In this document: in pieces, positions 2,803-62,561 of the stretch
Layout: each line of letters starts with the position of its first letter
How positions within the stretch are numbered: the first letter of the stretch is position 1
NCBI RefSeq assembly: GCF_014203425.1
Contig: NZ_JACHJC010000001.1
Coordinates: forward strand, 6,713,501-6,777,500
Origin: Micromonospora echinospora
GTDB taxonomy: Bacteria > Actinomycetota > Actinomycetes > Mycobacteriales > Micromonosporaceae
Length of the DNA: 64,000 bases
Direction of reading: 5' to 3'
Made by a program: the position numbers and the translations under genes
The notes under the pieces: model-generated
The model's input: the letters and a program-made list of their open reading frames with translations, nothing else
What the model was told of the DNA's origin: nothing
Database searches by the model: none

Positions 2803-3872
2803 AGCGTACGCAGATCGCGCTGGCCGACGGCCGCGAGCTGATCTACTTCGACGAGCGGGACGACGCAGTCCGGGACCAGCCGGACCGGCGGGACCTGCCC
2901 CCTCCCCCGCCCGCCTCGCAGCTGCGGTACGACCCGCTGACCGACGAGTGGGTGGCGGTGGCGGTGCACCGGCAGACCCGCACGTTCCTGCCCCCCGCCG
3001 ACCAGTGCCCGCTGTGCCCGTCCCGGGGCGACCGGCACAGCGAGATCCCGGCGCCGAACTACGACGTGGTCGTGTTCGAGAACCGGTTCCCGTCGCTGAG
3101 CCAGCGGGTGGCCGACGAACCGGCCGAGATCACGCCGTTCACCCCGGTACGGCCCGGGCGCGGCAAGTGCGAGGTGGTCTGCTTCACCGACGACCACAAC
3201 GCCTCGTTCGCCCGGCTCTCCCCGAGCCGGGTGCGCACGGTGCTGGACGCGCTCGCCGACCGCACCACAGCGCTGAGCGCGCTGCCCGGCGTGGAGCAGG
3301 TCTTCCCGTTCGAGAACCGGGGCGTGGAGATCGGCGTGACGCTGCATCACCCGCACGGCCAGATCTACGCGTACCCGTTCGTCACGCCGCGCACCCGCGA
3401 CATGCTGGCCGCCGCCCGGCGGCACGCCGAACGCACCGGGGGCAACCTGTACGCCGACGTGCTGGCCGCCGAGCGCGCCGCCGGGGAGCGGGTGGTGACG
3501 AGCAACGAGCACTGGACCGCGTACGTCCCGGCGGCGGCGCGCTGGCCGTTCGAGGTGCACGTGGCGCCGCACCGGCCGGTGCCCGACATCCCGGCGCTCG
3601 ACGACGCCGAGCGGGACGCGTTCGGGCCGCTCTACCTGGACCTGCTGCGCCGCTTCGACGGGCTGTTCGACCTGCCCATGCCGTACATCGCGGCCTGGCA
3701 CCAGGCGCCGGTACGGATCGACCGGGAGCTGGGCCACCTGCACCTGCAGCTGTTCAGCATCCGGCGCGCCAAGGACAAGCTGAAGTACCTGGCCGGGTCG
3801 GAGTCCGGCATGGGCGTGTTCATCAACGACATCGCCCCCGAGCGAGCCGCCGAACTGCTCCGCGCCGCGTGA
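2799..3872 (+). CDS. galT: Galactose-1-phosphate uridylyltransferase
   Basis: This Leloir-pathway enzyme exchanges UMP between UDP-glucose and galactose 1-phosphate. The 357-residue protein carries the active-site motif HPHGQ at residues 184-188 (His186 is the expected uridylylated residue) and an N-terminal CPLCP of the zinc site. The start is GTG 2799, overlapping the DeoR gene stop. No galK follows; the gene ends in a palindromic repeat whose first bases supply the TGA. Codon use matches the neighbours. Confidence 0.92.
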   Translation: MKRTQIALADGRELIYFDERDDAVRDQPDRRDLPPPPPASQLRYDPLTDEWVAVAVHRQTRTFLPPADQCPLCPSRGDRHSEIPAPNYDVVVFENRFPSLSQRVADEPAEITPFTPVRPGRGKCEVVCFTDDHNASFARLSPSRVRTVLDALADRTTALSALPGVEQVFPFENRGVEIGVTLHHPHGQIYAYPFVTPRTRDMLAAARRHAERTGGNLYADVLAAERAAGERVVTSNEHWTAYVPAAARWPFEVHVAPHRPVPDIPALDDAERDAFGPLYLDLLRRFDGLFDLPMPYIAAWHQAPVRIDRELGHLHLQLFSIRRAKDKLKYLAGSESGMGVFINDIAPERAAELLRAA

Positions 3873-3924
3873 AAGGAAGGGCCCCCTGTTAACGCCTGCG
3901 GTAGAGGAAGGGCCCCTTGTTAAC
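3869..3924 (+). repeat. Palindromic repeat element, copy A
   Basis: This is a roughly 56-bp element with near-complementary arms built on GGGCCCC/GGGGCCC, ending in GTTAAC. It matches, with few changes, the reverse complements of 4127-4184 and 46336-46393 and the direct sequence 62088-62144. The galT stop codon lies in its first four bases (GTGA). It could fold as a hairpin at the end of the galT mRNA. Confidence 0.85.
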
Positions 3925-4185
3925 AACCGCGGCCCGCGCATGGGGGCGCGGGGGGCCCGGGACAGGACCCCCCGCAGGGAAGGGACGGCTGGCTGCGCTC
4001 AGCAGCCACGAAGGTCGGCCGGCCGGCGCGCGACCGTGACCCACCTTCCTGGACGCGACTGGCATCTCGTCCACCCTGTCAACGAGAGCGCACCGAGCGA
4101 GGTCACGCCGCCCCGACGGCCCTGAGGTGTTAAAAAGGGCCCCTTCTACAACGCGAGGCGTTAAGAAGGGGCCCTTCCTTGCACG
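3873..4185. other. Intergenic region between convergent galT and icd
   Basis: No gene is supported in these 313 bases. The two ends are copies A and B of the palindromic repeat in opposite orientation, and they enclose about 200 bp (3925-4126) of unassigned sequence. Open frames crossing it have no ribosome-binding site and no recognisable product. Confidence 0.6.
4127..4184 (-). repeat. Palindromic repeat element, copy B
   Basis: This is the reverse-oriented copy of the element, lying two bases after the icd stop codon on the icd-coding strand. Its first half is near identical to the other copies, while the second half is slightly diverged (GCGTTGTAG in place of CCGGTAGAG). It may act as the 3' hairpin of the icd transcript. 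Confidence 0.85.
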
Positions 4186-46335: not shown

Positions 46336-46393
46336 GTGTTAACAAGGGCCCCTTCCTCTACCGGAGGCGTTAAGAAGGGGCCCTTCCTTTCAC
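46336..46393 (-). repeat. Palindromic repeat element, copy C
   Basis: This reverse-oriented copy is nearly identical to copy A (3869-3924). On the minus strand it begins at the stop codon of the GMC oxidoreductase gene (GTGA) and ends GTTAACAC, 65 bases before guaA. The arms AGGGCCCCTTC and GAAGGGGCCCT can pair as an 11-bp hairpin. Confidence 0.88.
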
Positions 46394-61208: not shown

Positions 61209-61235
61209 TTGGCACCCTCAGGGTGAGAGTGCTAA
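61209..61235 (-). promoter_or_regulatory. CIRCE operator, downstream copy
   Basis: TTGGCACCC, nine bases (61218-61226), GAGTGCTAA: the right half is a perfect CIRCE half-site and the left half has two changes from TTAGCACTC. It lies just downstream of the -10 box relative to groES, so HrcA bound here would block transcription start. Confidence 0.8.
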
Positions 61236-61239
61236 TCGC

Positions 61240-61268
61240 AGGTTATTCCTCGGCTAGCACTCCGTCAA
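61240..61268 (-). promoter_or_regulatory. groESL promoter
   Basis: On the minus strand TTGACG (61268-61263) and TAACCT (61245-61240) are separated by exactly 17 bases. The -35 box lies in the 9-base spacer of the upstream CIRCE copy, and the downstream CIRCE follows the -10 box. Confidence 0.75.
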
Positions 61269-61328: not shown

Positions 61329-62561
61329 GTGGATCTCGACCAGCTCGCCGCGCTGCGTACCCCCGAGGGGTCGGCCGCGCTCGCCGCGGCCGCTCGGGTG
61401 GCCGGCGGCGACCCGCTGGCGGCGGCCGCCGCGCTGCGCTCGGCCGGGATTCCGGGCGACCTCGCCGCCGCCGCGCTGACCCAGGCGGAGCTGCGCCGCC
61501 GCGCGGTCGGCAAGTTCGGCGCGGCCGCCGCCGGGATGTTCCTCACCCGGCCCGGGCTGGAGCAGGCCACCCGCGGGGTGGTCGCCGACCGGCGGGCCGC
61601 GCGGCTGCGCGCCGCGGGCGTGACCACCCTGGCCGACCTGGGCTGCGGCCTGGGCGCCGACGCGCTCGCTTCGGCCCGCGCCGGGATCCGGGTGTACGCG
61701 GTGGAGGCCGACCCGCTGACCGCCGCGATGGCCGCCGCGAACGCCGGGGCCGCCGGGCTGGCGGAACTGGTGACCGTCGAGTGCGGCGACGCCACGGCGT
61801 TCGACGTGAGCCGGGTCGACGGCGCGTTCTGCGATCCGGCGCGGCGGCGGGCCGGCACCGGGCGGCGCGTCTTCGACCCGAGGGCCTACTCACCGCCGTG
61901 GGACTTCGTCACCGGCCTGGCCGCGCGGGTGCCGCGCACCGTGGTGAAGGTGGCGCCGGGCCTGGACCACGCGCTGATCCCGGCGGGCGCCGAGGCGGAG
62001 TGGGTGAGCGTGGACGGCGACCTGGTGGAGGCGGCGCTGTGGTGCGGCGAGCTGGCCGGCGTCCCCCGCCGCGCCACAGTGCTGCGCGAGAAGGAAGGGC
62101 CCCTTCTTAACGCCTCCGGTAGTAAAAGGGTCCCTTCCTATCACCTCACCGGCACTGGGGCGGCCGAGGCGCCGGTGGGGCCGGTCCGGCGGTTCCTGTA
62201 CGACCCGGACCCGGCCGTGGTGCGCGCGCACCTGGTCGCCGAGCTGGCCACGGATCTCGACGCCACGCTCGCCGACCCGTCGATCGCCTACCTGTACGCC
62301 GACGAGGCCCGGCCCACCCCGTTCGCCCGCTGCCTGGAGATCACCGACGTGCTGCCGTTCTCGCTGAAGCGGCTGCGCGCCCTGCTGCGGGAGCGGCGGG
62401 TCGGCCGGGTCGAGATCCGCAAGCGCGGGTCGGCCCTGGAGCCGGAGAAGCTGCGCCGTGACCTGCGACTCTCCGGCAACGCGGCGGCGGACCTGGTGCT
62501 GACCCGGGTCGCGGGCGACCCCACGGTGCTCGTCTGCCGGCCGGTCCCGGCCGGCGGCTGA
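61329..62561 (+). CDS. THUMP-like class I SAM-dependent methyltransferase
   Basis: This 410-residue protein has an N-terminal helical part, a SAM-binding motif (LADLGCGLGADALA, about residues 96-109) and an acidic loop VEADPL. A CDPARR motif IV follows, then a C-terminal THUMP-like region (SLKRLRALLRERRVGRVEIRKRG). Substrate unknown. GTG 61329 begins the domain. Residues about 254-272 are encoded by a copy of the palindromic repeat, inserted in frame between two otherwise conserved regions. Confidence 0.85.
   Translation: MDLDQLAALRTPEGSAALAAAARVAGGDPLAAAAALRSAGIPGDLAAAALTQAELRRRAVGKFGAAAAGMFLTRPGLEQATRGVVADRRAARLRAAGVTTLADLGCGLGADALASARAGIRVYAVEADPLTAAMAAANAGAAGLAELVTVECGDATAFDVSRVDGAFCDPARRRAGTGRRVFDPRAYSPPWDFVTGLAARVPRTVVKVAPGLDHALIPAGAEAEWVSVDGDLVEAALWCGELAGVPRRATVLREKEGPLLNASGSKRVPSYHLTGTGAAEAPVGPVRRFLYDPDPAVVRAHLVAELATDLDATLADPSIAYLYADEARPTPFARCLEITDVLPFSLKRLRALLRERRVGRVEIRKRGSALEPEKLRRDLRLSGNAAADLVLTRVAGDPTVLVCRPVPAGG
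62088..62144 (+). repeat. Palindromic repeat element, copy D, inside a coding region
   Basis: The sequence GGAAGGGCCCCTTCTTAACG, followed by CCTCCGGTAG, is identical to part of copy C; the second half (AAAAGGGTCCCTTCC) is partly diverged. The frame stays open: the element adds about 18-19 residues (EGPLLNASGSKRVPS) to the THUMP-like methyltransferase. Confidence 0.85.

Follow-up and report, generated by a model that had tools for sequence, protein, structure and literature searches.

According to the accessible part of PMC3733652, REP elements (GTAG and CGTC families, RAYT) are short palindromic units arranged in dimers and trimers that lie between convergent or tandem genes, often less than 20 bp from gene 3′ ends. 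In the same text, the ends of the elements supply stop codons, and some copies are in frame, with dimers encoding 20–30 residues; all three features, 3′-end placement included, were described in 2013. The term actinob* is absent from that text. The size of MITEs is given there as 70–300 bp. The RPEs of Rickettsia, as presented in the accessible part of PMC10969869, are about 150 bp long and nearly half of them lie in genes.

Here we analysed a stretch of 64,000 nucleotides (the window), positions 6713501–6777500 of the 7.13-Mb single-contig genome of a Micromonospora near M. chalcea (7126 kb; the source genome, G000). One copy of a palindromic repeat, copy D, lies within a methyltransferase gene of the window (Table 1). 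That this copy is a real in-frame insertion is well supported; elements of its kind are known, and the setting is new. With a probability of about 0.78, we read it as a REP-like interspersed palindromic repeat, usually found at the 3′ end of genes, that inserted in frame long ago.

The repeat resembles REP elements in its short palindromic units, often in dimers, and in its many copies, as well as in the gene 3′-end placement and the supply of stop codons seen in the source genome. It differs from them in that its ends supply TAA and not TAG and in that no Y1 domain (PF01797) was detected in the source genome. Because no RAYT was found there, we do not file the repeat as REP, although REP elements are a closer known kind than RPEs. 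The earlier note had likened copy D to the Rickettsia elements. As regards behaviour the likeness is apt, since in-frame palindromic copies occur in five unrelated genes and a peptide recurs among proteins. It does not extend to membership: compared by description alone, the repeat is 54–60 bp long and not about 150 bp, only 5 of 87 copies lie in genes (82 are extragenic), and the phylum is different. MITEs share with the repeat small size, lack of coding capacity, terminal inverted repeats, many copies and occasional in-frame fusions (accessible parts of PMC10969869 and PMC3733652), whereas the repeat gave no target duplication signal and had no parent element in 955 kb of the source genome.

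In a literature search that covered subscription journals thinly, we found no earlier description of a Micromonospora or Micromonosporaceae palindromic repeat or of its core. As far as that search reaches, the repeat is a new actinomycete family, mostly head-to-tail and with no RAYT or Y1 detected in the source genome. With it, in-frame palindromic insertions, known from Rickettsia and REP-rich bacteria, reach into the high-GC actinomycetes, and it may illustrate one route by which short repeats contribute new stretches of peptide to conserved proteins.

Anatomy and copies of the repeat

The repeat consists of two palindromes, AAGGGNCCCTT, 30–31 bp apart. All four copies that the earlier note had placed in the window (at 3869, 4127 and 46336 and in the methyltransferase gene) were located there, each with paired cores (3877/3908, 4135/4166, 46344/46375 and 62095/62126) spaced by 31 bp. 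With up to one mismatch, the core pattern matched the window 9 times; 100 shuffles averaged 0.81 matches, and all of them stayed below 9. In the source genome there were 48 exact core pairs vs 0 for the reversed pattern.

Table 1. Coordinates in the window of the repeat copies and of the gene that hosts copy D
Feature	Position	Strand	Description
Methyltransferase gene	61329..62561	+	410 codons, open through the repeat; encodes a class I methyltransferase whose C-terminal domain is THUMP-like
Element copy A	3871..3924	+	overlaps the stop codon of a plus-strand gene (TGAAAGG...)
Element copy B	4129..4182	+	3′ end of a minus-strand gene
Element copy C	46338..46391	+	3′ end of a minus-strand gene
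Element copy D	62089..62142	+	54 bp, 18 codons, in frame; about residues 254–272 of the methyltransferase
Copy D core 1	62095..62105	+	AAGGGCCCCTT
Copy D core 2	62126..62136	+	AAGGGTCCCTT; 31 bp from core 1
Copy D right end	62137..62145	+	CCTATCACC; the usual TTAAC form would be a TAA stop in the methyltransferase frame

Allowing up to two core mismatches, we counted 87 copies in 955 kb of the source genome; these 955 kb are 70 pieces picked around known copies, and the genome total is at least 87. At least 5 weaker pairs occur in the same 955 kb, and the only exact core lacking a partner inside the mismatch limit (1129274) has a decayed one visible alongside. Copies were unevenly spread: between about 2.45 and 5.40 Mb (2.95 Mb), 7 of the 84 sites listed were found vs about 35 expected by length.

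Conservation stops about 7 bases outside the cores, at ends that read TGTAAGG or TGTTAAS, which gives 54–60 bp overall. Among the 87 copies, 58 combine an AAGG with a TTAAS end, 23 have AAGG twice, none has TTAAS twice and 6 have an unclear end; the repeat units are directional. Chains of three units are a minority. Spacers vary (GCCTCCGGTAGAGG, CAGACGTCTG, GCATTCTGCATAAG and others) at a constant pitch of 30–31 bp. At the unit foot, where REP elements of the RAYT type bear a GTAG or CGTC tag, the inner unit in the source genome is often GGTAGAGG and the outer ends are mostly GTAAGG or GTTAAS; other genera differ. RNA folding of three copies yielded −25.3, −32.8 and −53.2 kcal/mol.

The methyltransferase insert and other copies inside genes

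Copy D, which reads EKEGPLLNASGSKRVPSYH, had earlier been delimited as a 57-bp element at 62088..62144. The repeat is indeed there, with a unit of 54 bp (62089–62142), or about 60 bp including its weakly conserved ends. No stop interrupts the methyltransferase frame and the downstream domain stays in frame, as first noted: Pfam placed a methyltransferase domain at residues 103–168 and the THUMP-like domain PF18096 at 333–405, with the insert between both. The peptide at the insert includes KEGPLLNASGSKR. Codons ending in A or T make up 8 of the 22 in the insert stretch vs 2.5% in the flanks (source genome). The nearest named homologues of the protein are proteins named M. chalcea; within the source genome, the next-best BLAST match among the matches listed is 89% over query positions 5–66. 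The solved-structure matches listed stop by residue 188, short of the insert. In the AlphaFold model pLDDT averages 57 and is about 30 across the insert, and the model was set aside as evidence.

Copy D has CCTATC at its right end; in most head-to-tail copies this end reads TTAAC. A copy in a kinase-like gene lies in the same frame and ends in CTTATC. Among 174 outer ends in the source genome, GATAGG and GATAAG occur once each and are the sole two of that kind, a rarity to be read with the qualification that stop-bearing copies would not count as intragenic.

Alignment of homologues supports an insertion. A strict insert motif was matched by 82 of 120 close methyltransferase homologues, and 23 have RERD(D/E)AV in place of the insert. 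The other 15 fit neither form; two of these (P0009 and P0011) nevertheless have the insert, and partial deletion seems to have affected several of the rest. The roughly 18 residues claimed to have been added correspond to the 18-codon unit, but the net gain is 11 residues vs homologues of 399 aa and 39 bp vs one relative (G142). Thus, compared with the present loops of relatives, the insert does not amount to a clean gain of 54 bp.

At the copy D site, the windows of 10 relatives held 54 bp in 7 cases, 48 bp in G017 and a 15-bp short loop in G142; G006 had 96 bp of a variant element between the projected flanks. We also compared the loop in 14 genomes from 13 other genera. Seven of them (G178, G183, G165, G275, G200, G180 and G181) have loops of 6–10 residues, three (G155, G186 and G151) have 15–19 residues without likeness to the repeat, and two have a longer loop sequence whose origin is not apparent (G185 and G169). 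Recognisable decayed inserts were found in the remaining two genomes, which belong to two other genera (G157 and G159). These loops and decayed inserts indicate that the insertion predates Micromonospora or that several events took place at the same site; the repeat probably entered the methyltransferase before Micromonospora diversified, or did so repeatedly at the same place.

Among 17 of 30 loci, the share of A/T-ending insert codons correlated with the number of repeat copies (rank correlation 0.53, p 0.03); 3 loci without anchors, 4 without a known copy number and 6 with fewer than 18 codons were left out. Because the species are related, we regard this correlation only as a hint.

Among the 87 copies in 955 kb of the source genome, five are intragenic, copy D included, all in unrelated genes and each with a coding signal that continues in frame on both sides. 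The hosts are a biotin carboxylase subunit, a kinase-like protein (its named homologues are called serine/threonine kinases; no Pfam family matched), a CcdA-like membrane protein (CcdA slightly below the Pfam cut-off), a family 36 glycosidase and the methyltransferase. The peptide KEGPxxNASG is common to the methyltransferase insert and the unrelated kinase-like protein. In the latter, 4 of 120 homologues have the insert, while a simple insert motif was found in 84 of 120 CcdA homologues and another short sequence in 7. Inserts of the carboxylase and the glycosidase are visible in some of the 30 aligned loci each; the stretches that contain them are of variable length in any case. Further in-frame copies occur elsewhere, in a 541-aa protein of G006 and in a P-type ATPase of G275.

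An open-frame bias, as raised in the earlier note, can be computed: frames are open in 0.318 of cases among 76 two-core copies, which gives 0.003 for five of five. We rejected this test as circular: any copy that brought a stop into the frame would have escaped being called intragenic, and the five cases, which rest on our own gene calls, were selected for an open frame.

Gene ends and distribution among actinomycetes

By our own gene calls, 5 of the 87 copies lie inside genes and 82 outside. A gene 3′ end is within 20 nt of a core in 67 of the 82 extragenic copies, as against 6.6% in simulated random intergenic placement, and a gene 5′ end is nearby in 3 of the 82 vs 8.1% simulated. In the larger fetched pieces, convergent, tandem and divergent gaps held 19, 24 and 3 copies, at densities of 1.40, 0.39 and 0.08 per kb. 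Genes that abut a copy end in TAA in 30 of 77 cases vs 60 of 830 genes overall; the element often supplies the stop codon of its neighbour.

As in intrinsic terminators, a hairpin is predicted after the stop codon at gene-end copies. At the copy B site, the element is replaced by a plain GC-rich hairpin in three relatives (G142, G064 and G006). Judging from place and predicted folding, gene-end copies may act as bidirectional transcript ends or terminators. Given the gene-end bias, the repeat family offers candidate terminators in Micromonospora that can be put to the test.

A half-site pattern was present in 56 of 300 genomes of the family, with 0 to 113 matches in Micromonospora; a zero for one pattern does not equal absence of variant forms, as G006 has a different core at two old sites. 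In those windows (L097–L100) the core is like CAGGGGCCCCCTG and the spacer reads GCTTTYTGTATAG, unlike the same sites of other species. The core pair was found in 1 of 396 genomes of a thin phylum sample, the source genome itself, and in none of the viral contigs.

A scan of named genomes gave at least 120 stretches, and the 80 matches listed come from actinomycetes alone. The genera among the matches listed are Micromonospora, Catellatospora, Plantactinospora, Asanoa, Amycolatopsis, Kutzneria, Lentzea, Actinophytocola, Actinomycetospora, Prescottella and Rhodococcus, so that the core also occurs in Pseudonocardiaceae and Nocardiaceae.

Placement near 3′ ends was observed in other genera of the family (G200, 7 of 10 copies; G165, 8 of 15; G275, 8 of 10), with none at a 5′ end. 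For 79 copies on named contigs, with gene calls trained on the source genome, the counts near a 3′ end were 24/30 in Micromonospora, 6/10 in Catellatospora, 3/5 in Plantactinospora, 4/5 in Asanoa, 4/5 in Kutzneria, 5/13 in Amycolatopsis, 1/2 in Actinomycetospora, 1/3 in Lentzea, 1/1 in Rhodococcus, 0/3 in Actinophytocola and 0/2 in Prescottella. Outside Micromonosporaceae the bias is weaker or absent, though 4 of 5 copies follow it in Kutzneria.

Outer arms are genus-specific and mostly symmetric, as in the Kutzneria form AACGTCAGG-core-CCTGACGTT. A common core and pitch with very different symmetric arms were seen in Kutzneria (L268, L275, L322, L337 and L340) and Amycolatopsis (L271, L276 and others). 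In Actinophytocola algeriensis (L265, 3300–3450), several cores lie in tandem with an MKGPFV-like translation in a doubtful 80-aa frame.

Age, movement and competing explanations

Where copies of the source genome could be placed in one of three relatives (G020, G059 or G062), the site was filled in 26 of 27 comparisons (23 copies). This suggests that copies are mostly inherited and that recent movement is hardly visible. Copy C, empty in the close relative G062, is present in more distant species and was therefore probably lost in G062. In the reverse comparison, G020 has one copy absent from the source genome (L228, 7731), accompanied by about 30 bp of additional DNA; the other three "empty" sites are, by our reading, alignment artefacts. 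Across the copies compared with relatives, empty sites were all unclear and none was clean; element-free methyltransferase loops are 33–39 bp shorter and not 54, so the insertion event is deduced rather than caught.

No mobilising gene was found in the parts of the source genome covered (the 955 kb and a PF01797 search). Of 18 Micromonosporaceae genomes, 5 matched the RAYT/Y1 domain PF01797, irrespective of whether copies of the element were present; so did 3 of 11 others, one of which is apparently G200, already among the 18. A mobiliser of the RAYT or IS200 type was rejected, as the domain is absent from the source genome and bears no relation to copy number elsewhere. The lack of a detected RAYT raises the question of what moves the repeat, and a further one is why its DNA letters persist in old protein inserts. 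Between nine close pairs of neighbouring copies in the source genome we recognised no transposase; the genes there are presumably DedA-like, DUF559-like, an oxidoreductase and others.

In sum, the repeat comprises two, sometimes three, directional palindromic units at a pitch of 30–31 bp; it usually sits immediately at a gene 3′ end, often gives the stop codon there, and has a strong predicted hairpin. If copy D is an old insertion of this gene-end repeat, a putative mobilising enzyme would have spread the element in trans, and intragenic copies would survive only where 18 codons keep the frame, bring no stop and fall in tolerant loops or linkers. The methyltransferase insert, placed between two domains, would later have been kept, eroded or lost by lineage.

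A more specific mobile reading, which overlaps with the REP-like one, takes the repeat for a MITE, a deletion derivative of a DDE insertion sequence with TG...CA ends and terminal inverted repeats, moved by the transposase of that sequence. The ends TGTAAGG or TGTTAAS can be read as inverted repeats, and copy number within Micromonospora is patchy (0 to 113). Nevertheless, none of 42 combinations of register and length gave a target-site duplication above shuffled pairs (highest z 1.7), no full-length parent transposon and no single-ended copy bounding a gene were present in 955 of 7126 kb, and the repeat falls below the MITE size given in the accessible part of PMC3733652, which makes this origin unlikely. 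That the insert is an ordinary variable linker resembling the repeat by convergence is extremely improbable: loop length does vary among homologues, but the 54 bp correspond to a repeat that is present many more times in the source genome, and KEGPxxNASG recurs in the unrelated kinase-like protein.

It is possible, if rather doubtful, that the repeats are immobile, now or always, and represent selected gene-end signals (terminators or protein-binding dyads), with intragenic copies made by conversion or local duplication. The 3′-end placement, the convergent-gap bias and the stable sites between relatives agree with this, as does the pitch of 30–31 bp, about three helical turns. In 18 intergenic orthologous copies, the source genome and G020 differ at 7 of 382 core sites vs 173 of 2599 noncoding flank sites, but the difference between core and spacer is not significant (p 0.06), and core divergence is lowered because the copies were chosen by intact cores in the source genome. 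Moreover, similar copies in five unrelated genes are hard to obtain without spread, which would also be needed to explain why the pattern is missing from many Micromonospora species.

Returning to the reading of copy D as an old insertion of a REP-like repeat, we tentatively consider a wider version of it, for which the odds are low. The AAGGGNCCCTT pairs on a 30–31 bp pitch might be the core of actinomycete-wide gene-end palindromes that spread without RAYT, change their outer arms by genus and undergo homogenisation in each genome, coding genes included; an ancient insert would in this way keep the current letters of the repeat.

A separate observation concerns the neighbourhood of the methyltransferase gene. 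At about 61227–61263 of the window, GAGTGCTAA...TAGCACTC lies upstream of a minus-strand gene that is presumably groES-like, and we take its resemblance to be to the CIRCE operator.
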